The notes below the pieces were generated by a model. It saw nothing but the letters and a program-made list of their open reading frames with translations, was not told the origin of the DNA and searched no databases. The position numbers and the translations under genes are program-made. Below are positions 15,197-44,886 of a stretch of DNA of 64,000 nucleotides, one piece after another. The number at the start of each line of letters is the position of its first letter. Positions within the stretch are counted from its first letter, which is position 1. This stretch comes from Brevibacillus laterosporus DSM 25 (lineage in GTDB: Bacteria > Bacillota > Bacilli > Brevibacillales > Brevibacillaceae), in the NCBI RefSeq assembly GCF_002706795.1, contig NZ_CP017705.1, forward strand, positions 4,811,501 to 4,875,500, in the 5' to 3' direction.

Positions 15197-15297
15197 CAAG
15201 CACCCCTCACTTCATAATTTTTTTGCCTTTTATGCAATAATATGGAACTCCAAAGGTATAGTATCTCTGCGGTAGTAGCCATCTAGGCTCTTAGGCA

Positions 15298-18200: not shown

Positions 18201-18525
18201 TTAGCATGTATTGAATTCTTTCTTGGGGATATTCGATGTCGATCGGGACATATGCTCCCCCAGCTTTTAAAATCGCTAAAATACCAATAACCATCTCTAT
18301 TGATCTTTCCATGAAAATGCCAACAATTTGATCAGTTTGAATCCCTTTTTCAATAAATAATCGTGCGAGTTGATTTGCTTTGCAGTTAAGCTCTCGATAG
18401 GTAAGTTTTTCTGGTTCCAGGATAATGGCAGGATTGTTTGGGGTCTTCTCAACTTGACTTTCAAAAAGTTGATGAATTGTCTTATCATATGGATACGGTG
18501 TTGATTGCGAATGACTATACATCAT
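15298..18525 (-). CDS. tycA: TycA/GrsA-like loading module (A-T-E), aromatic amino acid activating and epimerising
   Basis: 1075 residues with the A-T-E layout of TycA and GrsA (about 1090-1098). Adenylation core [11 protein letters not shown] is near residue 165, [11 protein letters not shown] near 408 and [17 protein letters not shown] near 495. The carrier motif LGGDSIKA is near 545. The epimerisation domain starts near 602, with [11 protein letters not shown] and EGHGRED. There is no condensation domain, so it starts the chain. The pocket reads D-A-S-T-I-A-A-I-C. GrsA and TycA have Trp at the third position (DAWTIAAIC), while here the motif is FDASVSE. A Ser there should enlarge the pocket toward para-substituted Phe such as Tyr, which would fit the D-Tyr of loloatins. 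This substrate call is inference. The ATG at 18525 follows AGGAGG at about 10 bases. Confidence 0.94.
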
Positions 18526-21455: not shown

Positions 21456-24155
21456 TTAGTCCTTCGGGTAGTTGAAATCAGCCAAGTAGTTATAGTCAAT
21501 TCCGGGATGTTCTCCACATTCACTAACAGCAGAACCAGCTCCAGCTCCTACCGTAATACTAGCCTGATGGGGATTGATTCTAGGAGAACTCGATATCGCA
21601 TAATATCTAGGCTTAAGAGGGGGTAACAGCTCCAAAAACCTTTCGAAAGGCATCTCGCAAGCTTCATATTTTTCAAGTAGTTCTAGCATCGAAATGCCTT
21701 TCTTTCCTATCTGCTCTTCGTAGATAGCCTCATCTAACAACTCCTCTAATTCACGTTTATGTGGAGGACAAACCGTGTAAGCTGCAAGCTCACGTAACTG
21801 TTCACGAGTGGCGATTGCCTGTACTTCTACATTTTGACTGAGCAAATCATGAAGACTCACTGGCCGATCCAGTGGAAGATGCGTTGTGTTTCGTCCGCTT
21901 GCCTTCAAAATCAAGTGATCGTTCCCGTTCAATCCAAAGCGTCGCAGAATTCGATTGACATTTTCTTTACTATTTCTCGGTAATACACCAATATAATCAC
22001 CTTCCTGATAGGTAAGCCCATCTGGTAGAGTGATTTCTACATGTCGAGTACTCAGCCCACAATCAGCCCTCTCAAGCTCACGGTTCTCTTTTACATATGC
22101 GTAGACAGCATCGTACTCTAGAGCGAGTGGAACATCTAACAAGTCGTTGACAAACTGAATGGTAAGGGTGTCTCGGTCTTTTTCCTCATTGTTTCCTTGT
22201 AGCGTAAAAGCCTTCATGATGTCAGGCCACATACGTTCCTGCCATTCTTCTAGTTGATTTTCGAAGTCTCCGCTGGTGTCAGCTTCACCACGCGACGAGA
22301 GTCTCCTAGCTCCCTTTAAAGTAAGCTGCTCATCGATAAATCTTGGGACGTTTTGATAAGTATTTGCCCAATTGCGGTCCCCACATCCGAAAACTACATA
22401 ATTAACACCTTGAAGTTCACCTTCCTCTGCTCCCTCCAACCATTGTACGAACTTACGTGCATTATTCGGAGGCTTTCCATTATAAGAAGCGGTAACGATG
22501 AGTACGGCCCCTTCCTTCGGTAATTTCCCTAGCCAATCATCAAGTGGTGCAATCTCACTACTGACACCGAGTAAACCCGCGATACTGGAAAGCTCTCGTG
22601 CGGTACGTTCTGCTGTACCTAGATTAGATCCATAAAGCACCAGCAAAGATGCATGGTCGACCTTTGATATGGATTTTTTCATCTGATCCCAGCGCCTTGT
22701 TGTCCCTTTCGTGTTTGTATCTCCTACTTCATTCTCTTCAATAGCTTGGTCTAGCTTTTGTTTATTTCGCCGTTTAACACATATTTGAAATTCGTCTGGT
22801 TTTAGCGTTAACGTTTGCTGGATGTTCAACTGATAGTTCGTATGATCAATGAATTCAAAATGCTGGAGGATCATTCCCAGTACTAAAGTTGCCTCATGAA
22901 GTGCAAATTGCATCCCAATGCAAGCTCGCTGCCCATTTCCAAAAGGTTTATAGGCATGATGAGGAACTTTATCAGGATCTTCAAACCGCTCGGGACGGAA
23001 TTCATCAGCATCATCTCCCCATGCATCTTTATCTCGATGAAGCTGGGGCAAGAGTAATGCAATAACTTCTCCTTTTTTTATTGGATACTTCCCTCCAATG
23101 ATCGTATCTTCTTTAGCGGTAAGTTCAAATCCGGGGGCTGTTGGCCATAAACGTAACGATTCCTGCAAAATCATACGAATGTATGTAAGCTGTAGGACTT
23201 GCTGATACGAAGGAGATGAGCTGGTTAATACCTTATCCACTTCCTGATACGCTTTTTTTCGTGCCTCTGGATTTTTTAACAAAAAATAGAGAGCAAATGA
23301 CAATAAACCGCTTGTTGTTTCATGCCCTGCAATTAAAAACGTGATGATTTGATACCGTATATTTTTATCATCCAGCGTCTCTCCTGTTTGCGGGTCCTTC
23401 CCGTTGAGCATGCGTGAGAGCAAATCGATTTCACCTTGATCGCCATTCGCTTTTCGCTCCTCGATTATTTTGTCTACTAATGAAAACATCGTTTGAATAT
23501 CGTAGGTAAACTGACGTTTTGTTCCCACCATAAGCATGTTTTGAATCTTCAATCTTCCACTTTGATGCATAGCCTCCTCAAGAGCGCGGACCATACTGAC
23601 AATAAAAGGGCTATGTGTTTCTCTGTAAAAACTGTTAAAGCGATAATTGAAACCGCATAATCCAATAGTATCCAATGTAAGCCGGGTCATGTCGCCTGGT
23701 ACATCAATACTTTCATTAGGATTAAGACGCGCCCATTTTTGAATCAGCTGCAAGGCAATGTCCACCATCATGGAATGGTATCCTTTCATTGCTTGTTGGC
23801 TAAAAGTAGGAAGAAGGATATTATGAGCCTTTTGCCAATTTGGCTCGTCAGTCCTACTTGTAAATAATCCATCTCCACCAAAGGCACGTACATTTTCCAA
23901 ATCACCTGTAATATTTTTAAAGAAACGCGACTCGTCACAAATCTCAGCCACTAGTTCATGCCCAGAAACAACTAAACTAGAATTGCCAGGGAGTGTTAAT
24001 CGATATATCGGACCAAACTCTTCTGCAAGTTTACAAAGCGAGAGGGTCGGTTTATCTTTGTCTATTAAGGGTAGATTACCAAGCGGACCATACGTTTTGG
24101 GTTGCGGAATATATCCTACTTCTCTCATTACAAACATCCTTTCAGATAAATTCAT
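21456..24155 (-). CDS. CYP102-type P450-reductase fusion, C-terminally truncated (probably non-functional electron transfer)
   Basis: 899 residues, against about 1050 for P450 BM3 and its B. subtilis homologues CYP102A2/A3. The heme domain (about 1-455) has the oxygen-binding helix AGHETTSG and the cysteine loop [10 protein letters not shown]. The FMN flavodoxin-like domain begins near 500 ([20 protein letters not shown]). A partial FAD domain follows, with [10 protein letters not shown] near 860. The protein ends in [11 protein letters not shown], where the family continues for about 150 residues with the NADPH-binding part; a decayed piece of that remains just downstream. The full enzyme hydroxylates fatty acids in the cytoplasm. 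This version could bind substrate but should not accept electrons from NADPH on its own. It lies 43 bases after a TetR gene, the usual CYP102 arrangement (BM3R1, FatR). Confidence 0.88.
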
Positions 24156-26606: not shown

Positions 26607-27680
26607 CTATGAGAATGAATATCCTTCAACCACTCTACCATTACGTCCCTTCGTTGTTACAGCTCTAGACAGTGAGTTAAGAATTGCTTCCTCTGTCGCA
26701 TCACTTGCAGCAGTGAATAATTGATTCATCACTGGATGATCTTCTCGTAGCTGAATCCGATTCTCCACAATGTGTTCACTGTGATGAGGAATCTTATGCG
26801 CGGTTGAAAAGGCAATCACTATATCTCCACTACCATGACCATAATAGCTACCCGTTCTGCCAAGTCCAATGGCACAACGTTTGGCCATCCGCAACAATTG
26901 ACGCTCATTAACGGGAGCATCTGTAGCAAGAACAATGATGATCGATCCATCCGACGTATGTTCAATAGCTTCAGATGGAAGCTCTACATCTACTAGATGT
27001 TCTTTATATTTATCTATTTGAAATTCATCTTTTTTTCCAAAATTACTTAACACGAGTACCCCAACTGTATAGTTTTTTCCATCTACCTGGATGAACCGCG
27101 AAGAACTGCCTATCCCTCCTTTATATCCAAAGCAAACCATACCTTTTCCAGCCCCTATAGCTCCCTCTTCCGCTTGGTCTTCAGTCGCAACCTTGATCGC
27201 ATGTCTAGCATCTTCTGGTTGAACAACACATCTACGGATTGTATTTAGATAACCATCATTACACTCGCCAACGACCAAGTTGATCGTTCCTGTTGTATCT
27301 CCAATCTCAGGATTTTGTCCTAGCATTTCCTGTAGGGTACCTTGCGTAACAGCCGGTACCGAAAACGTATTGGTGAGCATGATTGGGGATTCCAGCACTC
27401 CTAATTCATTTACCTGCACAAGACCTGTAGTTTTGCCAAATCCGTTGATCACATAACTAGCTGCTATCACTTTTTCCAAAAATAGATTACCCCCATGAGG
27501 TAGAATGGCAGTAACACCGGTACATGCATAGTCTTGCTTCCCGTCATCTAGAGGTCGATCTATAGTTACATGACCGACTCTTACACCTCTAACATCCGTT
27601 ATGCAATTTTTCTTTCCAGTTGGTAACGTCCCAATCAGTATTCCTAACTCACGGACTTTTTTTCTTGTCGCTTGGTTCAT
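26607..27680 (-). CDS. P1-family peptidase (DmpA/BapA type aminopeptidase)
   Basis: 357 residues of the P1 (DmpA) family. These are N-terminal-nucleophile hydrolases that self-cleave before a serine to form alpha and beta chains, and they act as D-aminopeptidases, beta-aminopeptidases or amidases. Seen here are ITDVRGVRVGHVT at the N-terminus, FGKTTGLVQVNELGVLESPI near residue 90, and the likely self-cleavage stretch FGYKGGIGSSSR near 185-196 (Gly-Ser). APVNERQLLRMAKRCAIGLGRTGS near 255-280 is also typical. The start ATG at 27680 has GGGGAGA upstream. It is a single gene, about 250 bases from its neighbour. Its substrate cannot be read from the sequence. Confidence 0.87.
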   Translation of the reverse strand: MNQATRKKVRELGILIGTLPTGKKNCITDVRGVRVGHVTIDRPLDDGKQDYACTGVTAILPHGGNLFLEKVIAASYVINGFGKTTGLVQVNELGVLESPIMLTNTFSVPAVTQGTLQEMLGQNPEIGDTTGTINLVVGECNDGYLNTIRRCVVQPEDARHAIKVATEDQAEEGAIGAGKGMVCFGYKGGIGSSSRFIQVDGKNYTVGVLVLSNFGKKDEFQIDKYKEHLVDVELPSEAIEHTSDGSIIIVLATDAPVNERQLLRMAKRCAIGLGRTGSYYGHGSGDIVIAFSTAHKIPHHSEHIVENRIQLREDHPVMNQLFTAASDATEEAILNSLSRAVTTKGRNGRVVEGYSFS

Positions 27681-31271: not shown

Positions 31272-31323
31272 AAAAAATAGCGTGAAGCCACTCTTTAATC
31301 GAGTTCGTTTCACGCTGTTTTTA
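31272..31323 (-). terminator. Terminator downstream of the eight-gene HMGR-P450 operon
   Basis: AGCGTGAA at 31279-31286 pairs with TTCACGCT at 31309-31316. The minus strand continues into ATTTTTTTGC. It lies about 180 bases after the P450 stop and is the first good terminator in that direction. Confidence 0.65.
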
Positions 31324-31500: not shown

Positions 31501-32814
31501 TTACATTCGCTTGTTTACAACCATCTGTAAGGCTTTTGGGGACAAGGTTATCGAAGTGTTTATATCTAACTTTTCTTGATTAACCACTGATAGCTCGTAG
31601 CGTTGTAAAATGGTCGCTAAAATCAACACGGCCTCCGCCATCGCGAATCTCTGACCAATACACATGCGTGGTCCACCACCAAATGGAAAGTAAACAAACA
31701 TCGGTAATTTTTTCTCAAGACCATCTGCCCAACGCTCTGGTCGAAATGCCAATGGATCTTCAAAATAACGGGAATCACGATGCATTACATACTGACTAAC
31801 TAACACAATCGAATTCTTCGGAATCATATATTCGCCAATTTCAATGTCTTCAGCAGCCTGACGAAGCAATATATAAGCCGGAGAAAGAAGGCGTAAGGTC
31901 TCATTTACCACCATACCCGTATACTTTAGTTTCGGTATATCCTGGATGTCTGGCAAACGACCATGAAGCACTTCACGGATTTCAGCTACCATTTTGTCTG
32001 TTGCATCAGGATTTTCAGACAGAAGATAAAAAGCAAACGCCAGCGCTGCACTCGTTGTCTCATGACCTGCAATGATCAAGGTCATCACTTCATCGCGAAT
32101 TTGACGATCATCAAGTCCTTCTCCATTTTCATCACGCACACAAAGAAGCATACCTAACAAGTCATCTCCATAAATGCCTGATGATCTTCGTGCAGAAATT
32201 AACTGCAAAATCATGTCATCCATCTCTTTAGCACAGCGCTTATAGTTACTATAGCCTGGAAGTGGTATAGGGAACATGACTGCTTTAGAGTAATACCCTA
32301 GAATCGTCTGTAAAGCCTTAATAAGTTTGCCTTCGTCAATTGTATTGTTATGTCCAAACAGAGTCCTCATTACGACGTCGAGTGCCAAATTGAGCATGTC
32401 GATTTTAATTTCACGTTTTTCACCTTCTTTCCAGTTCTCGATGTAACGAGTAGTTACTTCAATGATGGTTTTTCCGTAACTTTCAATCCGCTTCTGGTGG
32501 AATTCCGGGGCCATCATCCGACGGTTCCGCAACCAGTGCTCTCCGTTAGCAGTGAACAAACCCTCACCCAATATATTCTTGATAAGTTTTGCTTGTAGTC
32601 GTTCATTTTTTATAAAACTTGACTGTTTTTTGATAAAAGCTTCTTCTATGAGCTCCGGCTTGTTCAACTGATAAATACGTTCGTTGAGCAACGGATAGTA
32701 CACGACGTCTCCATACTCGTCTGCGTTTTCCTTGACGAAATCTAGGATATTACTCAGGGTACGGAACACATTGTAAAGAGGTTTGTTTGGCCCAGGTGGA
32801 AGTGTAAGAGTCAT
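31501..32814 (-). CDS. Cytochrome P450, last gene of the isoprenoid-like operon
   Basis: About 437 residues, a normal bacterial P450 length. The proline-rich start LTLPPGP, oxygen-binding helix [10 protein letters not shown] (near residue 245), ExxR motif NETLRL and cysteine loop FPFGGGPRMCIGQRFAMAEA (near 375-395) are all intact. The sequence resembles CYP102/CYP4-like fatty-chain hydroxylases more than macrolide P450s, which is a soft impression. I start it at ATG 32814 because GGAGG lies just upstream. It begins 10 bases after the ligase stop, so it is co-translated with the operon. No ferredoxin or reductase gene is adjacent. A likely role is late oxidation of the operon's product. Confidence 0.9.
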   Translation of the reverse strand: MTLTLPPGPNKPLYNVFRTLSNILDFVKENADEYGDVVYYPLLNERIYQLNKPELIEEAFIKKQSSFIKNERLQAKLIKNILGEGLFTANGEHWLRNRRMMAPEFHQKRIESYGKTIIEVTTRYIENWKEGEKREIKIDMLNLALDVVMRTLFGHNNTIDEGKLIKALQTILGYYSKAVMFPIPLPGYSNYKRCAKEMDDMILQLISARRSSGIYGDDLLGMLLCVRDENGEGLDDRQIRDEVMTLIIAGHETTSAALAFAFYLLSENPDATDKMVAEIREVLHGRLPDIQDIPKLKYTGMVVNETLRLLSPAYILLRQAAEDIEIGEYMIPKNSIVLVSQYVMHRDSRYFEDPLAFRPERWADGLEKKLPMFVYFPFGGGPRMCIGQRFAMAEAVLILATILQRYELSVVNQEKLDINTSITLSPKALQMVVNKRM

Positions 32815-32824
32815 ATTGTCCTCC

Positions 32825-34423
32825 TCAAACGGAAATCGTTTGTTGCTCAAATTTTCCTTGTTCCAATGCCTTGTTCAAAAGACTATAATCGATTTTTGCA
32901 TTGTGCCTCTTATCTACCGGAATCTGATTCATATAGATAATGGAGTCGATCTGTGCCCATTCTAGCAATTTAGCCAATTCAGCGGTCATGTACCTCTTGC
33001 TACTCCTTTCAACAATTAATACACGACGACCGCGATATTGGGTTAATGCAGTACGCCCAATCGATTCGTCAAACGACAGGACACTTTCCACAGCAAACGG
33101 GTACAAAACCCCTCTTTCATCTCGAATACGTGCAGCAACTCGTCCCAAAAGCCAAAGTCTTCCCAATTGGTCGAAATACCCAGCATCCCCCGTTCGATGC
33201 CAGACTGCACCATCTACTCGAAATTTCGTCTCATCATCTCCTCTTCCGTGCAAATACCCGGAAAGTACATGTGGTCCTGTAACAACAATTTCGCCAGCCT
33301 CCTCATGAGTCAGGCAGATATTTTCAAATTCGGCGCTAGAAAAAGATCCCATCGGCTTACCCCACTGCTGACGAATAATACGCACTTGAATTTCTGGAAC
33401 AGGGGTTCCTACTAAAAGACCTTTTCCTGATTTGATTGATGTAAGGTCAGAAGTATGGATCTCGTTCCAACCTACTTCTGCAATGGGTTCGGCTTCGGTT
33501 GAGCCATATACAGCCATTATGCGAGCATTAGGCGCAATCCTTTGTAAACGTGACATGAGCCGTGGGAATACTGGTCCACCACCACTGAAGATATATGTAA
33601 GCTCAGGTAGAACGATGCCATGTTTTTCACAATACCCCAACAGCTGTTCAAAAAACGCAGGTGAGGCTACAATTCTCTGGGCATGGTATTTCTCGATCTG
33701 AGCGATGACGGGACCAGGTTCAATTGCTCCCGGTCGGCGTAGATCCCCATTTGGAATAATACTCATCATTCCAGCACCGAGATTACACAGGGCAAAAATA
33801 GGTAGCGTTGTCATATCGATTGCACCAGATTGCATATCGAGACTGTGCCGAAGTACTTCGTATTGCGCAACTAAAAACCCATGGGTTCGCACTGTAGCCT
33901 TTGGCTCTCCGGTGCTACCGCTGGTAAAGGTGATGAGAGCGGGCGTATCATGATAACATGTATGATAATCACTGTACGGTGTTGCATTGGTTTGTGTGGT
34001 CAAAGAAATGGCTCCAGGCAATTTCTTTCCAATTACAAATTTATGTGGAATCTTCCGAATAGCTGGAGATAATAGCCTCAACAGTTGGGCTTTTGGACTT
34101 GCGATCAGTGCTTTAGGTGGGTTCAGTGTACAGCATCGTTCGATATGATTTTTACCAGCAGATGGATCAAGGAACATCGCAATCAACCCAAGCCTAAAAA
34201 CCGCTACCAAGGTTATATACAACTCAATCGACATTGGATAAAAGAGTAGAACCGTATCACCCGCCTTCAACCCCTGTTTTTTAAAAATACCTGCCACTTG
34301 AGCAGAGCGTTTGTCCAGGTCGGCAAAAGTTAGTTGACGGGTCTCTCTTTCTGGCATATCCTGTATCGCGATCGCATTTGGGCGATTTTGAATATGGGGT
34401 TTCACAATTTCAAAGATATTCAT
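32825..34423 (-). CDS. OleC-like adenylate-forming ligase
   Basis: 532 residues of the AMP-binding superfamily. The P-loop-like motif is ITFTSGSTGEPKATVRTHG (near residue 155-172), with VYGSTEAEPI (near 295) and WHRTGDAGYFDQLGRLWLLGR (near 410-430). The C-terminal lysine motif reads PVDKRHNAKIDY. RHNAKI with this spacing is typical of OleC, the beta-lactone synthetase of long-chain olefin synthesis, and of related proteins. It therefore activates a carboxylic or beta-hydroxy acid, either to an acyl-AMP or a beta-lactone. OleA, OleB and OleD are not present here. It overlaps the upstream GNAT-like gene by four bases, so translation is coupled. The substrate is unknown. Confidence 0.82.
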   Translation of the reverse strand: MNIFEIVKPHIQNRPNAIAIQDMPERETRQLTFADLDKRSAQVAGIFKKQGLKAGDTVLLFYPMSIELYITLVAVFRLGLIAMFLDPSAGKNHIERCCTLNPPKALIASPKAQLLRLLSPAIRKIPHKFVIGKKLPGAISLTTQTNATPYSDYHTCYHDTPALITFTSGSTGEPKATVRTHGFLVAQYEVLRHSLDMQSGAIDMTTLPIFALCNLGAGMMSIIPNGDLRRPGAIEPGPVIAQIEKYHAQRIVASPAFFEQLLGYCEKHGIVLPELTYIFSGGGPVFPRLMSRLQRIAPNARIMAVYGSTEAEPIAEVGWNEIHTSDLTSIKSGKGLLVGTPVPEIQVRIIRQQWGKPMGSFSSAEFENICLTHEEAGEIVVTGPHVLSGYLHGRGDDETKFRVDGAVWHRTGDAGYFDQLGRLWLLGRVAARIRDERGVLYPFAVESVLSFDESIGRTALTQYRGRRVLIVERSSKRYMTAELAKLLEWAQIDSIIYMNQIPVDKRHNAKIDYSLLNKALEQGKFEQQTISV

Positions 34424-35448
34424 GCTTCCCTCTCCAATTTCTTAGCAAATAGGGTATAATCGCGAAGGATGTATCCTTCATTCGAGTTGAACCTAGTTGA
34501 TCGGTTTTTTTCGATCATTAGCGCATTTATGGCACGTTTGTAACCTAGCTTCTGAGCTAAATCGTAGACTGCCTTTACGAGGAAGGAACCTATTTTATAC
34601 CCTTGATATTTTGGATCAACGGCCAACGTCTTCAGAATTACTTGATTGATTGTTCTGCCCAATTGGGATTGCATCACATCTGGTAAGGTGAACATAAAGC
34701 CAACCAGTCGATCGCCATGTTCGGCCAACAAAACAAGTTCCGGTTGAATATAAGGAACAATCCTTTTGTATTGTTTTAAGAACTCATCTTCACTGATCTC
34801 GGTGTACAAAAAATTTTGCTGGAAAGCTCGTGTCGAAAGTTCATAGATTCGTTTTAACTCCTCGTCCATTCGGGTCAAATCCAACTGACGGACACTAATA
34901 CCAAGTCCACTCATATGCTGTGTCAGTTGCTTGTACCGTTTTTTCTCAAGCTCCAGCGCCTCTTCCCCCAAATCTCTATGATCGAGATCAACGATACGAG
35001 AAATGTAGTGAGCTAGCGGATCAAAGCCATCTTGTGTAAAATGATCTGCCCATTCCACTGGTGTATTCGGCTCAAGGAAGAATGGAAGATCTCCTTTTGT
35101 TTTCGTAACCAACCGGTGCATTTTCCAAGTACTTCCATCCATTGGACCAATAGCGATCGTACACCCCTTTTTTTCTAATTCTCTAGAAGACAATTGAAGT
35201 AATTCAACAGCTGCAGCACTATTTCGAGCTGCATAGTGTCCTATCACACCTACTTGATGATCTTGATATGGTGGTACGTGTGACCACCATAGGGAACAAC
35301 GTGCAGCTACGCCTTCATTGTCTAGTATCATCCAGTGAGCATCAGCATTCGATTCATTCAAAGTATCGATCCGATTTGCAGAAGGGCCAGCTAATGAGCA
35401 GAACTCTTCCTTCATCTCGATACTTGTAACCCGCACTGCTTTAAACAT
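34420..35448 (-). CDS. GNAT-like acyltransferase, two-lobed
   Basis: 342 residues. The C-terminal half has a GNAT acetyl-CoA signature: KTLAVDPKYQGYKIGSFLVK near residue 265-285, with LVGFMFTLPD before it. The N-terminal half looks like a second, degenerate GNAT lobe (ARCSLWWSHVPPYQ; AAVELLQLSSRELEKKGCTI), as in two-domain acyltransferases. Together with the operon's lipid-type enzymes it could acylate a lipid head group or an amine, but no substrate can be read. The start ATG at 35448 follows GGGAGG. It is 33 bases downstream of the kinase-like gene. Confidence 0.7.
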   Translation of the reverse strand: MFKAVRVTSIEMKEEFCSLAGPSANRIDTLNESNADAHWMILDNEGVAARCSLWWSHVPPYQDHQVGVIGHYAARNSAAAVELLQLSSRELEKKGCTIAIGPMDGSTWKMHRLVTKTKGDLPFFLEPNTPVEWADHFTQDGFDPLAHYISRIVDLDHRDLGEEALELEKKRYKQLTQHMSGLGISVRQLDLTRMDEELKRIYELSTRAFQQNFLYTEISEDEFLKQYKRIVPYIQPELVLLAEHGDRLVGFMFTLPDVMQSQLGRTINQVILKTLAVDPKYQGYKIGSFLVKAVYDLAQKLGYKRAINALMIEKNRSTRFNSNEGYILRDYTLFAKKLEREA

Positions 35449-35481
35449 ATCGAGTGTTCCTCCCTACTCTTTCATTGTTCA

Positions 35482-36801
35482 TTAAAAAAACAGAATTCCA
35501 ATAACAGAGCCAACCGTTGCACAGATTGGTTGAATTAACACCTCTGCCTTTGATCTTTTAAAAACAAAGAGATAATAAATACCAGTAGCCATGAGCATAC
35601 TCACAGCTGCCCAGATCGAATGGATAACCACTTCGCTGGACAGACCTGAACGAAGCACCAAGGCAGCCAATGTCAGCCCCCAATTCTTCAGAATGTTTAA
35701 AAGGAGGTAAATTAACAGATATTTTTTCTGAGACGACTGAAAGATTTCCGTGAGACTAAAACATACAGATTGAACCAACAGACCGATCAAGAAGGCGAAG
35801 AAGAAAACTTCACTCTGAGTCTGCTGATACAAAAATAGCCATACGAAGCTCATCGTATACGTAGCGATGAATAATCCTATTTTTTTGCTAGAAAACAGTT
35901 CATTTGAACTTTTCAAAATAATGGGCGATGACAAAGAATGTAATAGCAAGACCAATAGAAAGTCTGCTCCCCCAATAGCCCAGCTGACATACGAAATCAA
36001 TGATATTCCCAGCACTGCCTGTGGACACACCACCTTAGTTCTTCTGCATGCTTCTAGTAAGATAAACAGTAAGAGAGCTAAGGAAAGCGCCAACAGTAAG
36101 TGGGCATTGTCTTTAGCAATGAGAAACTTGAGCATCATGAAGCTGACGATCGGTACCACCAAATTATCCTTCCCACCCCAAGAAACAGACTCAACTAGGG
36201 TGGCTAATAGCGACACTGTAATGGAGATCATTAAATTGGCCGTTCCGTCCATCGGAAAAAACAGAAATAAGATGATGTGAGTCGACAAAAAGGCAACTAA
36301 AAAGAAGGCAAAGGATCCTTCTATACTTTTCACTCCCTCGGGAACCACGTACCTCACCTGACCATAACGAACGCCGACAAGAGCGGCGATCGCATCAGCT
36401 AATGTGAGAATGATGAGAGAAATGCTGTACAGCACCCTTTCTTCCGGTTCTGTAAAAAGGAGAAGAATGGCAATACTCATAACGAAATACATCTCGCCAA
36501 ATGAATAACGCGAAACATCGGATAAAATTTTTCCTGGTCCATCCTTTAGTCGAGTAACTCGGAAAAGAAGTAGGACAATTGCGACTAGCCCTAACACAAC
36601 CAACACCGGCCAGTCTTGACCAAAAAGCCACGGAGCAATTAATGCGAATGTACCGCAACTCATATGAAAAAGCTTCCGGACCCATTCTGGATCAGGTTGA
36701 AATCTGACTTGGTAAAAACGCAGGCCAGCAATCAGCAAGGCTATGGCAGCAAGCAGCAGCACAATACCAAACCAAGGATGTAAGGGAATAACACCACTCA
36801 T
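35482..36801 (-). CDS. Phytol/dolichol kinase-like polytopic membrane protein
   Basis: 439 residues, strongly hydrophobic, about a dozen membrane segments. The N-terminal half has the SEC59/VTE5 (CTP-dependent dolichol/phytol kinase, CDP-diglyceride synthetase-like) pattern: PEWVRKLFHMSCGTFAL near residue 38, LTLADAIAALVGVRYGQVRY near 130-150, KSIEGSFAFF near 158, and ESVSWGGKDNLVVPI near 203. The C-terminal half is an additional membrane region I cannot assign. Known members phosphorylate prenyl alcohols, so a polyprenol or isoprenoid alcohol substrate is plausible. The start ATG overlaps the stop of the DUF3419 gene by four bases. Confidence 0.78.
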   Translation of the reverse strand: MSGVIPLHPWFGIVLLLAAIALLIAGLRFYQVRFQPDPEWVRKLFHMSCGTFALIAPWLFGQDWPVLVVLGLVAIVLLLFRVTRLKDGPGKILSDVSRYSFGEMYFVMSIAILLLFTEPEERVLYSISLIILTLADAIAALVGVRYGQVRYVVPEGVKSIEGSFAFFLVAFLSTHIILFLFFPMDGTANLMISITVSLLATLVESVSWGGKDNLVVPIVSFMMLKFLIAKDNAHLLLALSLALLLFILLEACRRTKVVCPQAVLGISLISYVSWAIGGADFLLVLLLHSLSSPIILKSSNELFSSKKIGLFIATYTMSFVWLFLYQQTQSEVFFFAFLIGLLVQSVCFSLTEIFQSSQKKYLLIYLLLNILKNWGLTLAALVLRSGLSSEVVIHSIWAAVSMLMATGIYYLFVFKRSKAEVLIQPICATVGSVIGILFF

Positions 36802-37940
36802 ATGATTTCCTCCAGAACAAACGCACTATAAAAGAAGGCTTTATCCTGCTTAAAAAGATCTTGGCTCAAGTTCGTAAGCGGACGAAGCGACTCTTCCATG
36901 CGCGTTGGACGACTTCGAGGAACGAGCATATTCCAGTAAGCCAATCGTCCTTTTTTCCGCCCTGCTCGTACTAAAAGCTCCAGTAAATTTTCATATTGGT
37001 CTTCAGACATATATTCAAAAATGTCACTAAGGTTGTACTTGTCAATTGCGTTCTTGCCCACATCATTTAAATATTCTTCGACCGATAAGCAGTGCCATTC
37101 AATACGATGTAGATTGTTACGTATTGCATCAAAATTTTCAGGTCTCAATGCATAAGGTAGTGCATTGCTATGGTGGCCTAGTAGAATCCATTGGAGATAA
37201 GGATTTTGCATGGGATCCAGCTCAGTTAAGGCATATTGGGCTCTTTGTAGAATCCTTGTTGCCACGCTACCCTCTACGTAACGGAAAAAACGGGTATCCC
37301 TACCCAGCCTCCCCATGACAAAACGTGAAAAAAAGAATTGGAACATCAATCTCCATCGTAGTGTATCCCATTCCTTTTGATAAAACGTTCGACGCTCCTC
37401 TAGCGTCCGATGCTGAAGAAGTTTTTCCACTCGATAGCGCGAGTGTACAAAAGGTAATACCGAGTTGCGAAACATTGAAAAATATTGTTCAAATTTCCCG
37501 ATACTTCCGATTCCAGACTCTATAGCAGCAGATTGAGAATCCCAATAGCTCTTTACTGCTGGTGTGAGCTGATTTCGACATTTTTGATACAGTTCATTGC
37601 GCCGGTTACTTGGGATTGAGCCCATTAGCTCCAACAGCTCAGTATGTGTTAAAGCTGAATAGGCAGCGACGCGTAATTCTAAGCAGGCAAGCTGTGCATG
37701 GCTCAAATCTAGGGCAACAACACGCTCTGGCGACTTGCTTACCATCGCTAGAGCATTGTCGCCAGAAGAAGAGATAGCCAGACAGTTATCTCCAGGCTGG
37801 ATATCAAGTGCATTCAGGAGGATGTCAGCATCCTCCCAGCACTGGGCATAACGGATTAAGGAAAAATCAACTTCGCTAACTAGTTTAGGATGCGCTTCTA
37901 TCGGTACTTGTGGGGCGAGATTTCCAACACTATTAGGCAC
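36798..37940 (-). CDS. DUF3419 / BtaA-like 3-amino-3-carboxypropyl transferase
   Basis: 380 residues of DUF3419. Its characterised member BtaA transfers the 3-amino-3-carboxypropyl group of S-adenosylmethionine to diacylglycerol, the first step of betaine lipid synthesis. Seen are IRYAQCWEDADILLNALDIQ (near residue 28), the SAM-binding-like AISSSGDNALAMV (near 55), VVALDLSHAQLACLELRVAA (near 73-92), GSIGKFEQYFSMFR and FFSRFVMGRLGRD (near 205). The start is GTG at 37940 with GGAGGAGG upstream, overlapping the dikinase stop by eight bases. No BtaB-like N-methyltransferase is in the operon, so a full betaine head group is not supported. The acceptor may be a prenyl lipid. Confidence 0.82.
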   Translation of the reverse strand: MPNSVGNLAPQVPIEAHPKLVSEVDFSLIRYAQCWEDADILLNALDIQPGDNCLAISSSGDNALAMVSKSPERVVALDLSHAQLACLELRVAAYSALTHTELLELMGSIPSNRRNELYQKCRNQLTPAVKSYWDSQSAAIESGIGSIGKFEQYFSMFRNSVLPFVHSRYRVEKLLQHRTLEERRTFYQKEWDTLRWRLMFQFFFSRFVMGRLGRDTRFFRYVEGSVATRILQRAQYALTELDPMQNPYLQWILLGHHSNALPYALRPENFDAIRNNLHRIEWHCLSVEEYLNDVGKNAIDKYNLSDIFEYMSEDQYENLLELLVRAGRKKGRLAYWNMLVPRSRPTRMEESLRPLTNLSQDLFKQDKAFFYSAFVLEEII

Positions 37941-40611
37941 TGATCGATCCCTCCTCCGGGGTTATCTTACGAATTACCCCCGTGCTTCCGTCAAATTCAA
38001 CCCAATCTCCTGTTTTCAGCCATCGAGTCAGACCGGTTACAGAAACGATCCCAGGAATACCAATTTCGCGGCAAACAATTGATACATGGGATAAAAGACT
38101 TCCTCGTTCAACCAATAATCCAGCTGCTGAAGAGAAAAGCACGATCCAGCCTGGATCGGTTCGCTCAGCTACTAGGATTTCCCCTGGCAGTAACGTCACC
38201 CCACGAGGATCGGTAACGACTCGAACCGGACCGCGAACAACACCTGCCGCACAACCAATTCCTTTCATCACATCGCCAGTCAATGGTTCTTTCGGAGCCT
38301 TCGCTTTAAACGTATTTCCCTTATAGATAACGCCATACGTTTCAAATCGATCCTCAGGCACATCCATTTCATGATACTTCTCAAATTCAGCTTTTCGCAG
38401 TGCTACCAGACCCTTTAGGTTACTGCATGTCGCAGTTCCGTCTGCCATACCTAGCAGTTCCCCTACCTCCAGATAGAAAACATCGCGGGGATCGTCAAGC
38501 AGATCAAGTGCATAAAAGCGACGCCCCATCTCCAGAAAGATGGAACGGCAGCGGCCAAAGACCCGTGTTCGTTCGAATCGTAGGTTTTCCCGATCACGAA
38601 CGCGCAACCGCGCATTTTTAAGTACCCAGCGAAAAAGAACACGACGAAACAGGTTGAAGCCGATTGATTTGAATGCTTGCTCTTCTGCCATGCGGCGTAT
38701 TTCTTCTTCGCTCGGTCCCATCTTAGTTGGGGAGGAACGCATTGCAAGATAACCAATAGAGCGCAACAACGGCAACGGATTGTCAAACAGATTTATGCTT
38801 TCCAGTTTGAGTTCATCTAAACACCGATCTCCAAACTTGTCCAAATAAGCCTCGTACTCTTCTTTGAATTCCGGGAACCTATCCATTTCCTTCATGATCT
38901 CTGCTAGAGAGCCATTGCAGAGGATGTCGATGAATTTGGCATCTTGATGCGTTACCTTCATCAGCTTTTTCATACGCATTGCTGGTTCTGCGCTGATAAT
39001 TCCCCCTTCTGCTGCGAGCAGTGAATTCTGTAAGGTGGAATCCTCATCATTGCACCATTTCGTAGTCAGCTTGCGCAGCAAGCCGTAGTAGATCATTGCT
39101 CCGAAGTCGTTGATCAACGGGGCATCCCAACGAGTCAGGAGCTGACCTTGTAGCTTCAGATAGTAGTTGGCTAGCTCGACTGTACTGTATTGATGTAAAT
39201 CTGGGCGAGTAATACCAAGTGCATTGTTTAAACGTTGGTAAAAAACATCAATCGTCTTCGGTAAACGTCTGAAGTTGCCAATCAGCTTGACAATTGATTT
39301 ACCTAGGCGCATTGCGTCCTTGAGCTTGTCTTGCATGCTCACCTGCTGCTGGTCATTATCAGTAAGTTGCTGGGGAAGAGCTTCCTTAACGCCCATCATC
39401 TGTTCCATAAAATTTCGATTCATCTGATAACCAGGAAGCAATGCCAGACACCGGTACCAATTCAGCAGATTGTAATACACCCGTCCATTTACAAGACCAA
39501 TCATGCAACGGAACACAGATTCCCGATTAACGATTTCCTCACCAGAGACCCCCATTATTCGGCAGAATGACTTGTAAACCTCAGCATAAGCATGACGTGC
39601 AAATGAATATGTCAAAGGGGTAGTAATACCGCCATAGCTTTCTGAAATATTGCTGTTGTCCCATAGGTTAAACTCATCATCAGGGTCAATCATGTCAGCT
39701 AGGTTGGTAATTGGACGGGATTGCAGTAGGTAAAGCTTTCCATCCTGGATTGCCCACTCAATATCCTGAGGACGTCCGAAATAACGTTCACATCGGTGAG
39801 CTAGCTCTGCAACTGAACGCACCAACTCATCCGTAAGAGCTGGCTGATTCACCTTCTCTTTTGCTACATCTACGCTCTCCACTCCTTCATCACATTCCAT
39901 AGAGAAACGATGAGCAATAAGTTTGGTGGCTATTTCACGCTCCACGATCTCCCCACTTCGATTCACTTTGAACGTGTCTGCATCGCATTCCCCTGACACA
40001 ATCGCTGTACCCAGCCCATACAAGGCTCCCACAATGGCAATCTTTCTTTGCCCTGTCAGGGAGTCTGCACTGAATGCAACTCCTGCTGTTTCCGAGTCAA
40101 CCATTCGCTGTACAAGGACGGCTGGTGGCTCAGGCAGTAGGCTAAGTCCCTTCTCTTTGCGATAAGTCAAGATACGTTGGCTGAAGCCAGATCGCCAGAC
40201 CTGAAGAACCTTAGCTGACACATCCTCAGGTTTGACAAACAAGTAACTTTCTAGCTGACCAGCAAAGGAGTGTTCAGTTCCATCCTCATCTAATGCCGAA
40301 GAACGGACGGCAAGCAGTTCCCCATTTGCACTGAGTAACTCAACTTCTTTTTTTAGCATAGCCTCCACATTGGAATCTAAAGTGATATCTCTTAAAACCC
40401 GCGTGACTGCTTCTTCGGATTGAAGGACCGCTATCTTTAGCTCCTCCATAAGACTTTTTGGTACACTCGCAATAAAAGCATCTGGAGTAACAACGAACCA
40501 CTCGGGAATAACCATTCCTGCCTGTCCCAGCAGAGCGAGGGCACGAGCTTTTCCGCCCATCTTTTGCAGTTCATGCGCCTCTATATGGTTCATTTGAAGA
40601 ATATAAGTCAT
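37933..40611 (-). CDS. PEP synthase / rifampin phosphotransferase-like dikinase
   Basis: 892 residues. An N-terminal ATP-grasp domain (about 1-310) has KMGGKARALALLGQAG, GELLAVRSSALDEDGTEHSF and RPQDIEWAIQDGKLYLLQSR. A long, unassigned middle (about 320-770) follows. The C-terminal swivelling phosphohistidine domain reads DPGWIVLFSSAAGLLVERGS, then LLSHVSIVCREIGIPGIVSV, with the catalytic His. This architecture is that of rifampin phosphotransferase and of YvkC-type proteins, which move the beta-phosphate of ATP through His to an alcohol. The middle is unlike what I recall of the rifampin-binding lid, so the acceptor is unknown; an operon intermediate with a hydroxyl group is the natural guess. 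The start ATG at 40611 follows AAAGGAGG. It is 21 bases downstream of the UbiA gene. Confidence 0.85.
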   Translation of the reverse strand: MTYILQMNHIEAHELQKMGGKARALALLGQAGMVIPEWFVVTPDAFIASVPKSLMEELKIAVLQSEEAVTRVLRDITLDSNVEAMLKKEVELLSANGELLAVRSSALDEDGTEHSFAGQLESYLFVKPEDVSAKVLQVWRSGFSQRILTYRKEKGLSLLPEPPAVLVQRMVDSETAGVAFSADSLTGQRKIAIVGALYGLGTAIVSGECDADTFKVNRSGEIVEREIATKLIAHRFSMECDEGVESVDVAKEKVNQPALTDELVRSVAELAHRCERYFGRPQDIEWAIQDGKLYLLQSRPITNLADMIDPDDEFNLWDNSNISESYGGITTPLTYSFARHAYAEVYKSFCRIMGVSGEEIVNRESVFRCMIGLVNGRVYYNLLNWYRCLALLPGYQMNRNFMEQMMGVKEALPQQLTDNDQQQVSMQDKLKDAMRLGKSIVKLIGNFRRLPKTIDVFYQRLNNALGITRPDLHQYSTVELANYYLKLQGQLLTRWDAPLINDFGAMIYYGLLRKLTTKWCNDEDSTLQNSLLAAEGGIISAEPAMRMKKLMKVTHQDAKFIDILCNGSLAEIMKEMDRFPEFKEEYEAYLDKFGDRCLDELKLESINLFDNPLPLLRSIGYLAMRSSPTKMGPSEEEIRRMAEEQAFKSIGFNLFRRVLFRWVLKNARLRVRDRENLRFERTRVFGRCRSIFLEMGRRFYALDLLDDPRDVFYLEVGELLGMADGTATCSNLKGLVALRKAEFEKYHEMDVPEDRFETYGVIYKGNTFKAKAPKEPLTGDVMKGIGCAAGVVRGPVRVVTDPRGVTLLPGEILVAERTDPGWIVLFSSAAGLLVERGSLLSHVSIVCREIGIPGIVSVTGLTRWLKTGDWVEFDGSTGVIRKITPEEGSISA

Positions 40612-40632
40612 GTGCTTTAACCTCCTTTTCCA

Positions 40633-41559
40633 TTAAAGTAAAAGTGGGACAAGTCCCAAACTAAGATACAGTAAGATAATGAGTAACCCCGAAACTTTTT
40701 CAATTGCCTGTGCTACTTTGGTTGTCATAGACCTAAGAAAAGCCAAGGCCATCAGAACTGCGATCAGCACGTTCAATAGAGTGCACCACATCACAATTTG
40801 GCCAGCATCCACCTGTACGGAAGCCATCAAAACCACGCAAGACGTGAGAAGGACGACAGACACCCAAATCCAAGTTGCCTTTTTGTAGCCCCAAAGGAAG
40901 CTATAAGTCTCAACACCATACTCCTCATCCTCTGGGATTCGTATTTTGCGCCCGATCTCCAGAATGATTCCGTTTCCGTAGCTAGCTAGTAAAAGCCAAG
41001 AAAGCCCAGAAGGAATTGAGACCGAAGCTGTAACCCAATCGCAAGCCACAATATACATCACGATCATCGGCATCATTACCATATGGGACAGCAAATAGAT
41101 AATCGGATGAGCTTTCAACCATTCCTTGACAAAGAATTCCTTACTCATCAAAGCCAGATAGCCCCACGCAAGCACTAACCAAGGAATGAGCTTTGGAGAC
41201 AACCAATATGCCATGCCTAACTGAACCAGTCCTATTAAAACGCCAAGTATCCCTAGTTGTTTTAGGGTCACAACTCCACGCGGAACAGCCCGATACGAAC
41301 GAAATCGGGAGTCTTCTTCAAAGTCCTTAAATTCGTCTGCAATGCGCAATAGCAAAAAGAACAAAAAAGTCGACAGGAAACCAATAACAAGCGACTTGAT
41401 ACTAGGTAATGCCCCGTTTCTTAGGATCGAAGAGTATAGCATCGTAGAAATGCTGAATACAGCAACCACAATTCCATTTTGAACAATGGGAAATCTCTCT
41501 CGCTGATAAATCCACCAACGTTTTGACCAAGAGAGTTGTTGATATGTCACATTAGACAT
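40633..41559 (-). CDS. UbiA-family membrane prenyltransferase
   Basis: 308 residues, about eight or nine membrane helices. The first Asp-rich motif is LRIADEFKDFEED (near residue 82-94), an NDxxDxxxD variant that begins with Ala. The second is RKIRIPEDEEYGVETYS (near 203-220). Both loops bind the Mg-prenyl diphosphate in UbiA enzymes. The aromatic, glyceryl or other acceptor cannot be read from sequence. Its start overlaps the HMG-CoA reductase stop by eight bases, a sign of translational coupling. In the operon it is the step that would attach an isoprenoid chain. Confidence 0.87.
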   Translation of the reverse strand: MSNVTYQQLSWSKRWWIYQRERFPIVQNGIVVAVFSISTMLYSSILRNGALPSIKSLVIGFLSTFLFFLLLRIADEFKDFEEDSRFRSYRAVPRGVVTLKQLGILGVLIGLVQLGMAYWLSPKLIPWLVLAWGYLALMSKEFFVKEWLKAHPIIYLLSHMVMMPMIVMYIVACDWVTASVSIPSGLSWLLLASYGNGIILEIGRKIRIPEDEEYGVETYSFLWGYKKATWIWVSVVLLTSCVVLMASVQVDAGQIVMWCTLLNVLIAVLMALAFLRSMTTKVAQAIEKVSGLLIILLYLSLGLVPLLL

Positions 41560-42847
41560 ATTGTTTCACCATCCCAGGAATTGTGCCATCATTGCCACGA
41601 GATCGCTTATGGTGGGCCCTAGTAAAATCATCAGCAGCCAATGCAGCGATAATAGACAGCTCGCCAGCTAAGACTAGGCCGGCACATATCTCCGCAAGCG
41701 CATGTGCATGCCCAGCGCCTGAAAGTCCCATGATTTCAAGGCATGCCTTCTGACTCGGCAATCCCGTACCTCCACCCACTGTACCAACAATAACATTCGG
41801 TAAAGTTATCGATGCATAAAGGTCTCCATTCGATGTCAGTTCAAATCGTGTAATTCCAACGGCCGATTCTGATACACAAGCAACGTCTTGTCCAGTTGCT
41901 AGATATAGAGCTGTCAACCCATTAGCCACATGACCTTGGGAACCTATCATGCCTTGCAGGACTCCACCTACAAATGCCATTTTCCAATATTTTTCCATAT
42001 GCTCAGGAGTAGTGTGAAAGCGTGAGCGAACCAATTTCGCTGGTAACACTACTTCGGCACAAACTTTTTTCCCCCTCACAGTCATGAAGGATTTTGCTGA
42101 AGCCTTCTTGTCTCCCGAAAAGTTAGCTTCAACAAAGCTATGCTGGAACGGAACTGGTGAATGTTGTCGAATATAGTTACAGATTTCTTGCGTTGCGATC
42201 GTTACCATGTTTTGTCCAGATGCGTCGCCGGTTGAAAATTCAAAAATGAGGTATACATAATTACCTTCGATCATGTGATCCATTCTAATGCACTGCCCGA
42301 AGCTTGTCGTGCTCTCAGCCACTACTCGTAAGTTATCAAATTCGGAAACTGCCCAGTTTGCAAAGCGGCTTGCTTCCACTACGCTCTCAAAGATAAAACC
42401 AGGAGTACGGCCAACTGCTTCTTTCAGAATCACGGCTCTGCAACCACCTGCTTCACTAATAACCTGTGCACCGCGGTGATAAGAAGCAACAAGTGCAGCC
42501 TCTGTAGTTGCCAAAGGAATATAATAATCTCCTTGTGCATAGAGACCTTTGATCCGTAGAGGGCCGGCCAAGCCTACCGGAATGTTGATTGTGCCGATAA
42601 GATTCTCAATATTTTTTTGATACAATTCAAGTTGGCTTAATGCTTGACTACCCAGTAATTGTTCTTTGGCATCAACTCCAACTGACAGTAAATCCCACCT
42701 AGCCTCTATTGCCCTTGCCGAAACTCTTGCTCCCCCAGGTACACGTTTTGGAAGAGGAGTGTCCTTGGAACTAAAATCCTGATATCGATCGTCATCAACA
42801 CTTCGTAACATGTGATTATCTACTTCTTTACTTGTTGGAAACTTCAT
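41552..42847 (-). CDS. HMG-CoA reductase-like enzyme (class I motifs), first gene of the operon
   Basis: 431 residues. Catalytic regions of class I 3-hydroxy-3-methylglutaryl-CoA reductase are present: ENLIGTINIPVGLAGPLRIK (near residue 80), TTEAALVAS (Glu, near 115), NFSGDKKASAKSF (Lys, near 243), GQDVACVSESAVGI (Asp, near 320), GTVGGGTGLPSQ (near 355) and the C-terminal FTRAHHKRSRGN (His). The usual GDAMGMN is GDASGQN here and TTEGALVAS is TTEAALVAS, so substrate or cofactor preference may differ. The canonical reaction reduces HMG-CoA to mevalonate with NADPH. Bacillales normally make isoprenoids by the MEP route, and no other mevalonate gene lies in the window. The start ATG follows AAAGGAG. 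Confidence 0.9.
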   Translation of the reverse strand: MKFPTSKEVDNHMLRSVDDDRYQDFSSKDTPLPKRVPGGARVSARAIEARWDLLSVGVDAKEQLLGSQALSQLELYQKNIENLIGTINIPVGLAGPLRIKGLYAQGDYYIPLATTEAALVASYHRGAQVISEAGGCRAVILKEAVGRTPGFIFESVVEASRFANWAVSEFDNLRVVAESTTSFGQCIRMDHMIEGNYVYLIFEFSTGDASGQNMVTIATQEICNYIRQHSPVPFQHSFVEANFSGDKKASAKSFMTVRGKKVCAEVVLPAKLVRSRFHTTPEHMEKYWKMAFVGGVLQGMIGSQGHVANGLTALYLATGQDVACVSESAVGITRFELTSNGDLYASITLPNVIVGTVGGGTGLPSQKACLEIMGLSGAGHAHALAEICAGLVLAGELSIIAALAADDFTRAHHKRSRGNDGTIPGMVKQYV

Positions 42848-43864: not shown

Positions 43865-44886
43865 CTATGACTTCGATTTCATTAACAAATAGATAAAATA
43901 AGGAGCTCCTAAAGCAGAAACAACAATCCCTACTGGTAATTCCGAAGGCGCCAAGATATTACGTCCAATTGTATCTGCAGTGAGTAAAAGAAGTGCCCCA
44001 AGTAGAGCAGCCGTTGGAATTAAAATCTGATGCTTCGGCCCTACGATTTTTTTAGCCAGATGCGGAGCAACCAATCCGAGGAACGAAATCCCCCCCCAAC
44101 TGCCACGCAGGCACCTGCTAAAGCAACAGCCGTTAACAGCAATACTCTACGTTCCCTCTCCACAGCGGTTCCTAAACTCACAGCAATATCATCGCCAAGG
44201 TGTAACACGTTTAAATAGCGTGCTTTATACATGGTAAAAGGAATAAGAAAAACAATCCACGGAAGCGTAGCTAATACATACGTCCAATTTGTACTCCAAA
44301 TGCTACCCGACAACCAAACCATAGCCTTCATAAAATCTGTATCGTTCATTTTAAGCTGAAACACAATTAATAATGCACCCAGTATAGCGTTCAAAGCAAT
44401 CCCAACCAAAATGAGGCGTGTCGGGGTTACACCATTTTTCCAGGCAAATAGATAAATCAGAAAGGCAGAGAGAGAAGCTCCGGCTAATGCTACTAATGGC
44501 AAAATAAAGATGGACATGGTACTAATAGCTGTCATCGAACCACTAAATAGATAAATATAGATGACGACAAACAAGCCTGCCCCAGAGTTTATCCCTATAA
44601 TGCCTGGTTCGGCCAGTTCGTTTTGTGAGACACTTTGTAAAATGGCTCCAGAACTAGCAAGACCAGCTCCGATTAACAAGGCAATAACCATCCGTGGTAG
44701 TCGGAACTCGAATAAGATCAGATTGTTATCCGCCGTTCCAAATCCAAACAAAGTTGATATGACATCCAAAGGCTCAATGCGAATGACTCCTAAATGTAAA
44801 CTGACAAAAAAAGCTACGATTATCAGTGATGTGATCAATCCAAGGACTAACCAGGGGCTTTTTCTTCCTTTGTGTAATACTTGCAT
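43865..44886 (-). pseudogene. FecCD-family siderophore permease 2, frameshifted in a run of eight G/C
   Basis: Two adjoining frames together encode a full FecCD permease of about 340 residues. The first runs from 44886 to just past VALAGACVAVGGG. The second resumes as ISFLGLVAPHLAKKIVGPKH and continues to 43865. The break lies at 44090-44097, where the minus strand reads GTT, eight G, ATT. Nine G would restore VGGGISFLG in frame. The protein would be an integral membrane subunit of an Fe-siderophore ABC importer. Its start overlaps the stop of permease 1 by one base. The frameshift may be a sequencing error, a true mutation or a phase-variable tract. Confidence 0.85.

Follow-up and report, generated by a model that had tools for sequence, protein, structure and literature searches.

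Phytol salvage and the tocopherol route rely on VTE5, VTE6 and a UbiA-type prenyltransferase, and rifampin phosphotransferase (RPH) acts on a hydroxyl group of its acceptor. In the diacylglyceryl-trimethylhomoserine (DGTS) betaine-lipid system BtaA/BtaB, BtaA is the aminocarboxypropyl transferase, according to PMC10491745. Together with class I 3-hydroxy-3-methylglutaryl (HMG)-CoA reductase (HMGR) of the mevalonate pathway and the beta-lactone synthetase OleC, these are the systems with which we compare an eight-gene operon in a 64,000-nucleotide stretch of a Brevibacillus genome (positions 4,811,501-4,875,500 of a 5.4-Mb single contig, NZ_CP017705.1; hereafter the window). The operon shares an alcohol-kinase-like protein and a UbiA transferase with the phytol/tocopherol route, but it has a dikinase instead of VTE6, no aromatic-ring genes, and occurs in non-photosynthetic bacteria. 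With DGTS synthesis it has in common an S-adenosylmethionine (SAM) enzyme of the DUF3419 family, homologous over its full length, yet it combines this enzyme with six other conserved ones and contains no methyltransferase among its eight genes. Its reductase belongs to the class I HMGR family and keeps the catalytic Glu/Lys/Asp/His, whereas Ser684 is replaced by Glu, the gene is clustered with those of other enzymes, and neither HMG-CoA synthase (HMGS) nor mevalonate-diphosphate decarboxylase (MVD) was found in nearly all genomes tested. The dikinase (892 amino acids, aa) resembles RPH (867 aa) in length, in its N-terminal ATP-grasp, its C-terminal His swivel and in that no phosphoenolpyruvate (PEP) domain was found, but it reaches just 215-314 bits against RPH models with cut-offs of 999-1700, and its gene lies in a biosynthetic cluster. 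The ligase, finally, shares the adenylate-forming family and a C-terminal RHNAK motif with OleC, but falls far under the OleC cut-offs, and the operon holds no OleA/B/D. We give an even chance to the operon being the Brevibacillus copy of a widespread, undescribed pathway for an amino-acid-headed lipid, which has probably spread horizontally.

The evidence for a conserved unit comes from the recurrence of the gene set. Genome contigs were scanned once with the DUF3419 protein, and 80 of 116 confirmed relatives were kept as loci, 47 of them well flanked (at least 6.5 kb before and at least 4.5 kb after the DUF3419 gene). Gene counts unite a hidden Markov model (HMM) ordering with tblastn matches above 80 bits, which were added because a greedy overlap filter had cost the HMM ordering some genes in GC-rich loci; the 80-bit limit also counts weaker relatives, such as the HMGR at L017 or the dikinase (PPS), UbiA and OleC genes at L041. 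All seven core genes, i.e. the eight minus the cytochrome P450, were present at 25/47 well-flanked loci, and UbiA, PPS, BtaA, GNAT and OleC jointly at 37/47. Individually, HMGR was found at 30 and the kinase at 31 of the 47, and BtaA stood alone at three; its own presence carries no weight because the loci were sampled by BtaA. By record title (those of metagenome bins being the depositors' own), the 25 complete loci span 13 phyla: Firmicutes, Proteobacteria, the Geobacter/Desulfobulbus group, Planctomycetes, Verrucomicrobia, Lentisphaerae, Chloroflexi, the Deinococcus group (Trueperaceae), Acidobacteria, Bacteroidetes/Rhodothermales, Gemmatimonadetes, Rokubacteria and Nitrospirae. Loci from Cyanobacteria, Acidimicrobiia and Armatimonadota carry four to six core genes. 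The order HMGR-UbiA-PPS-BtaA-kinase-GNAT-OleC was seen at 12 loci (13 including a P450-bearing one), and its cyclic shift GNAT-OleC-HMGR-UbiA-PPS-BtaA-kinase at nine; on a Roseinatronobacter plasmid record the seven genes are consecutive, with HMGR truncated by the record start. In the Calothrix phylum, 15 of 292 genomes contain BtaA (E <= 1e-60), 11 contain HMGR (E <= 1e-30) and seven contain both (hypergeometric P 5.8e-8); leaving out the previously known G113, G099 and G102, the figures are 12, 9 and 5 of 289 (P 5.7e-6), both probabilities ignoring shared ancestry. Chance does not explain the grouping, since unrelated loci show these genes in the same order. A co-inherited cluster of seven genes is well supported. 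The initial annotation had proposed a dedicated set of eight and named scattered homologs as the outcome that would speak against it; the loci show co-inheritance of seven, and the P450 is the gene that drops out.

The P450 accompanies the cluster at 2/47 well-flanked loci, among them that of B. laterosporus, and is thus outside the conserved unit, a lineage-specific accessory; the family call was right, but an integral final step is not what the loci display. At the other P450-bearing cluster, L034, an open reading frame (ORF) resembling PAP2 phosphatases by eye (17617-18285) precedes the P450. Clustering of ORFs at the 80 loci gave no conserved eighth gene: every additional family is confined to at most 10 loci. 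The most frequent one (10 loci) lies antisense to UbiA in the example L027 and looks spurious; the list comprises families in at least three loci, four of which were scanned with Pfam and the others viewed by eye at most. A long ORF at L011 (5287-7740) was considered as a gene fusion, which we do not claim because its two tblastn matches are in different frames. Upstream of UbiA, HMGR-less cyanobacterial clusters encode a radical SAM protein as well as two proteins that have no Pfam hit (ORFs L068 3554-4711, L055 4453-5481 and L057 4178-4663).

Through its DUF3419 protein (89% identity), the nearest named relative of the window operon is Brevibacillus laterosporus, with an identical eight-gene order. 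The HMGR gene was found at 88% identity in two of four other genus members searched and not in the other two, while 30 other family members gave no match better than E 9e-8. The next-best DUF3419 relatives come from cyanobacteria and other phyla (<=66% identity), and the GC content of the operon is 44.4%, compared with 38.2% in the 30 kb to its left and 41.3% on its right side. This contrast and the distant next-best relatives suggest that Brevibacillus acquired the operon horizontally. The ends of an insertion were not definable at an empty site in the HMGR-less genus members G001 and G002, since the right flank itself has no close match there.

We then considered whether the reductase serves isoprenoid supply, as its name implies, in 39 genomes with a cluster HMGR (L063 was left out). 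MVD exceeded its cut-off in just one, a Lentisphaerae bin, with matches of 19-23 bits below the cut-off in four more; it was above cut-off in 2/14 control genomes and not in the window genome. Dxr of the methylerythritol phosphate (MEP) pathway, by comparison, matched in 37/39 genomes, 36 of them above cut-off. The C-terminal domain of HMG-CoA synthase (HMGS_C) was found in 2/39, including the window genome, where the HMGS sits in an ACP-KS-HMGS-enoyl-CoA-hydratase cassette (ACP, acyl carrier protein; KS, ketosynthase) beside a PfaD-type protein, which we read as a polyketide beta-branching set. In the 38/39 genomes where MVD did not exceed its cut-off, there is no sign of an ordinary mevalonate pathway that would use the reductase product, and mevalonate supply was rejected as the role of the family as a whole. 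Hence, the initial call of an HMG-CoA reductase holds for the family but is not supported for the isoprenoid-supply step.

Consistent with a different role, the substrate pocket is altered. In an alignment of 35 cluster HMGRs (the window protein and 34/38 cluster ORFs, four shorter or weaker ones having been dropped), the equivalents of Glu559, Lys691, Asp767 and His866, in human HMGR numbering, are each kept in 35/35. The Ser684 position (Ser of SGN..DKK), presumably a contact to HMG, is Glu in all 35. By contrast, it is Ser in five solved chains aligned (6hr7, 1dq8, 2q1l, 8ecg and 7uli) and in a Streptomyces plasmid gene within a mevalonate cluster. Glu is likewise found in 4/4 cyanobacterial genomes whose HMGR lies on a contig other than that of BtaA. 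Seven more distant Calothrix-phylum HMGRs have Asp (six) or Glu (one), and five of the seven (L126, L131, L132, L135 and L136) share their stretch with PPS, UbiA, GNAT or OleC. The distant HMGRs L085 and L117 have Glu, with no cluster gene within the 4-11 kb examined. Alteromonas, with Ala at this position, and Sinorhizobium, whose motif differs, are exceptions. Three solitary HMGR-like genes on Vibrio/Photobacterium plasmid records have Asp, show no cluster gene within ~9 kb, and fall inside the cluster HMGR clade (FastTree tree, support values not read). Taken together, the cluster enzyme very probably has its role outside the mevalonate pathway and the name "HMG-CoA reductase" is probably a misnomer; we propose an acyl-CoA-to-alcohol reductase. 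At somewhat less than even chance, bacteria may have a second, so far unrecognised HMGR branch, marked by Glu/Asp at Ser684, that has departed from the mevalonate pathway and reduces acyl-CoA by four electrons as part of a pan-bacterial pathway for an amino-lipid; the Vibrio/Photobacterium genes would be offshoots of this branch.

A second link concerns the putative kinase. The window protein is of the long form, extended by a further membrane part at its C-terminus. Pfam gives no hit for it at E 0.001; at E 0.1, 8/37 family members show a weak DUF92 match (best E 5e-4), and weak CTP_transf_1 hits also occur among members. Across 37 sequences, E39, R42, K43, H46, G50, D136, K158, E161, G162 and S163 are invariant, and the conserved motifs E..RK..H, DA..A..G, G.KS.EGS and G.DN match what we take to be the polyprenol/phytol kinase signature. 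A family match above 300 bits was present in all 39 cluster-HMGR genomes. In four of 23 further cluster genomes, a cluster-type HMGR (59-60% identity) is encoded elsewhere, and each of these four also has a kinase above 250 bits, in one case as contig-end pieces. Among the remaining 19 (two with remote HMGR relatives), three exceed 250 bits, all with short forms, which also occur in three HMGR-positive genomes (G067, G070 and G082); several of the 19 gave only ~85-117-bit matches. The resulting tally is 43/43 cluster-HMGR genomes, including four with HMGR and kinase on different contigs, versus 3/19 others (Fisher P 3.5e-12), a count that ignores shared ancestry and whose HMGR-positive genomes were reached via BtaA loci. 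A strict HMGR-kinase pair is weakened by these three genomes and by two small-genome relatives, L124 and L138, whose kinases score 225-228 bits (own profile) with HMGR absent at E 1e-30. HMGR implies the kinase, then, and not the reverse, a one-way co-occurrence in keeping with an alcohol that is first formed by reduction and then phosphorylated.

As regards the dikinase, its two Pfam domains (Table 1), an ATP-grasp and a swivel, are the only ones; the C-terminal PEP/pyruvate barrel was not found in the Pfam scan. The best solved relatives, 5fbs, 5hv1 and 5hv2, match residues 3-308 and 576-881; deposited as phosphoenolpyruvate synthase, they are presumably rifampin phosphotransferase structures. 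With its ATP-grasp, a middle (acceptor) part and a C-terminal His swivel with the conserved motif GSLLSH, the protein has the RPH-type layout. RPH uses ATP to turn rifampin into phospho-rifampin, with AMP and Pi as further products (PMC4844700), and by analogy an enzyme of this layout can phosphorylate an organic acceptor. The UbiA family conserves the motifs LRIADEFKD...D and E.GRK.R.P..EE.GV.TY. The model of the DUF3419 protein (predicted local distance difference test, pLDDT, 92.3) resembles SAM methyltransferases weakly, one match having E <0.001, and the aminocarboxypropyl transferase 8zhv/8zhu is among its matches at E 0.08-0.09. That of the GNAT protein (pLDDT 92.6) has a tandem GNAT fold, its Foldseek matches being led by tandem GNATs (7q3a) and including mycothiol synthase 2c27 and the L-PGS 4v36. 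The initial family calls for UbiA, the BtaA-like protein and the GNAT were sound, and the motifs of the putative kinase encoded alongside them are compatible with the phytol/dolichol-kinase-like label. The "PEP-synthase-like dikinase" is a dikinase, but with the domain content of rifampin phosphotransferase rather than of PEP synthase.

Five observations underlie the pathway we propose: the genes are co-inherited, a mevalonate pathway is missing, the HMGR pocket is altered, HMGR co-occurs with the kinase, and the dikinase lacks the PEP domain. Substrates, step order and product are inferred. The OleC-like ligase would activate a carboxylic acid to an acyl-CoA or acyl-AMP, and the HMGR-family enzyme, retuned from HMG-CoA, would reduce the acyl-CoA to an alcohol with NADPH. 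The SEC59/VTE5-like kinase would phosphorylate this alcohol, and the RPH-type dikinase would add a second phosphate or phosphorylate another hydroxyl. UbiA could then transfer the chain, which may be isoprenoid, acyl or both, from the diphosphate to an acceptor. The BtaA-like enzyme would move the 3-amino-3-carboxypropyl group of SAM to a hydroxyl, yielding a homoserine ether, whose amine the tandem GNAT may acylate. In B. laterosporus, the P450 would oxidise the product.

Several points weigh against this scheme. At 8/47 loci, UbiA, PPS, BtaA, GNAT and OleC occur without HMGR or kinase. Conversely, L131 and L132 hold an HMGR-UbiA-PPS-GNAT-OleC cluster with BtaA neither adjacent nor found at the cut-off used, and with no kinase either on the stretch examined. 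The two kinase-bearing relatives without HMGR at the cut-off used (E 1e-30), L124 and L138, are Calothrix-phylum genomes of 2.0-2.3 Mb with a tight UbiA-PPS-BtaA-kinase-GNAT-OleC run. No one fixed product can require HMGR, kinase and BtaA alike, because their membership varies between loci; this variation suggests that several related products exist and share UbiA, PPS, GNAT and OleC as their core machinery. Besides, many genomes are metagenome bins and possibly incomplete, the kinase assignment rests on motifs, and the limits of the Fisher count apply. Moreover, HMG-CoA or a close analogue is a possible substrate of the cluster HMGR because the equivalents of Arg590, Asp690, Lys691 and Lys692 are kept in 35/35.

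The latter point leads to a reading near that of the initial annotation, in which a true HMG-CoA reductase helps to make a prenyl chain from mevalonate, destined for a lipid or meroterpenoid. The retained catalytic and most HMG-binding residues agree with it, as do UbiA and the prenol-kinase-like protein, and leucine breakdown could supply HMG-CoA. However, the pathway survey (MVD 1/39, Dxr 37/39, HMGS domain 2/39), the Ser684-to-Glu exchange in 35/35, and the fact that none of the eight operon genes encodes a mevalonate kinase or a prenyl-diphosphate synthase render it quite improbable. What survives of that annotation is the dedicated set with UbiA, kinase-like and BtaA-like proteins, but not mevalonate supply or the P450 as last step. 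BtaA might instead act on diacylglycerol, the other genes supplying or modifying an unusual diglyceride, to give a homoserine glycerolipid. The DUF3419 protein is homologous over its full length to a family member from Rhizobium (E 1e-25) whose gene adjoins a SAM methyltransferase gene, 49 of the 118 positions conserved in the cluster proteins recur there (a comparison using 40/67 BtaA sequences), and a homoserine ether suits an N-acylating GNAT. Yet identity to the Rhizobium protein is just 23%, two genomes hold the rest of the set without adjacent BtaA, and no methyltransferase is among the eight window genes (whole genomes were not profile-searched for BtaB), so this variant appears unlikely. 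One methyltransferase-like family, judged by eye, occurs at 3/80 loci.

A beta-lactone or another small specialised metabolite might also be made, the OleC-like enzyme closing a 3-hydroxy acid, the HMGR-like one handling a 3-hydroxyacyl-CoA and the rest decorating the product. Patchy spread, such as BtaA in 15/292 Calothrix-phylum genomes at E 1e-60, fits specialised metabolism, and OleC models are among the closest families of the ligase, whose conserved C-terminal motif P.D.RHNAK we take to be that of OleC. Nevertheless, these models score 243-257 bits against cut-offs of 850-900 (NF006754 reaches 412 against 478), and OleA, OleB and OleD are missing among the eight window genes, other loci not having been profile-searched for them. 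We hold this possibility to be improbable; the "OleC-like" label keeps its adenylate-forming family but lies well under the OleC cut-offs. The amino-acid-headed lipid is our preferred product.

Within the window, all eight minus-strand ORFs were found where the initial annotation had placed them, and its small overlaps and gaps were confirmed (Table 1). HMGR and UbiA overlap by 8 bases, PPS and BtaA by 8, BtaA and kinase by 4, and GNAT and OleC by 4, with gaps of 21 between UbiA and PPS and 33 between kinase and GNAT. The OleC/P450 junction is a gap of 10 with the internal ATG start (32814) or an overlap of 26 with TTG (32850). A terminator, annotated about 180 bases after the last gene, was seen by eye 185-222 bases beyond the last stop, with its stem at 31316-31309/31286-31279 followed by ATTTTTTT; the terminator scan does not list it because its loop limit is 8 and the actual loop is 22.

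Table 1. Operon features in the window, and solitary HMGR-like genes at other loci
Feature	Coordinates	Strand	Basis
HMG-CoA-reductase-family enzyme (class I type)	41552..42847	-	PF00368, 384 bits
UbiA-superfamily membrane transferase	40633..41559	-	PF01040, 52.7 bits
Dikinase-type phosphotransferase (PPS)	37933..40611	-	PPDK_N 17-305 and PEP-utilizers 809-878
DUF3419/BtaA-like predicted SAM aminocarboxypropyl transferase	36798..37940	-	PF11899, 243 bits
Membrane polyprenol/phytol-kinase-like protein (SEC59/VTE5/VTE6-like)	35482..36801	-	conserved residues; weak DUF92 hits in 8/37 family members
Tandem-GNAT acyltransferase	34420..35448	-	Acetyltransf_1; model
OleC-like adenylate-forming ligase	32825..34423	-	PF00501, 174 bits
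Cytochrome P450, lineage-specific accessory	31501..32850, likely start 32814	-	PF00067, 309 bits
Candidate intrinsic terminator, 8-bp stem, 22-base loop, then T run	31279..31316	-	by eye
Solitary Vibrio/Photobacterium HMGR-like genes	L112 8938-10200; L113, L114 match from 9001

Elsewhere in the window, all on the minus strand, a FecCD/Fhu-like permease gene (family by eye; 43866-44886) is split across two reading frames, its ORF 44041-44886 stopping early and the C-terminal part running on in another frame. A fused P450-flavodoxin-FAD reductase (BM3-like; 21456-24155) lies ~7 kb past the operon, and the window also encodes a pair of large non-ribosomal peptide synthetases (3589 and 1075 aa; 4430-18525) and a peptidase family S58 protein (26607-27680).

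The open-licence literature, to which our search extended (subscription journals were not covered), held no description of the gene set or its parts as a cluster, in line with the initial annotation, which had recognised no described pathway with this set. In that literature, DUF3419 appears in the context of algae, betaine lipids in plants and a smut fungus. The terms DUF3419, dikinase and phosphoenolpyruvate are absent from the accessible portion of PMC9235831, as are the words Brevibacillus, Vibrio and orphan from that of PMC13001223.

In summary, the cluster is real, conserved and undescribed. No product, name or model was found for the seven-gene set, and its retention in 13 phyla, as judged by record titles, implies a compound under broad selection. 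Our data suggest that two annotations, "hydroxymethylglutaryl-CoA reductase" and "PEP synthase", are misleading in these genomes, where a relative of the statin target is used in bacteria mostly without the pathway that HMGR normally serves. If the proposed pathway is true, the well-studied HMGR family would gain a reaction outside isoprenoid supply, and the orphan HMG-CoA reductases of MEP-pathway bacteria would gain a testable role.

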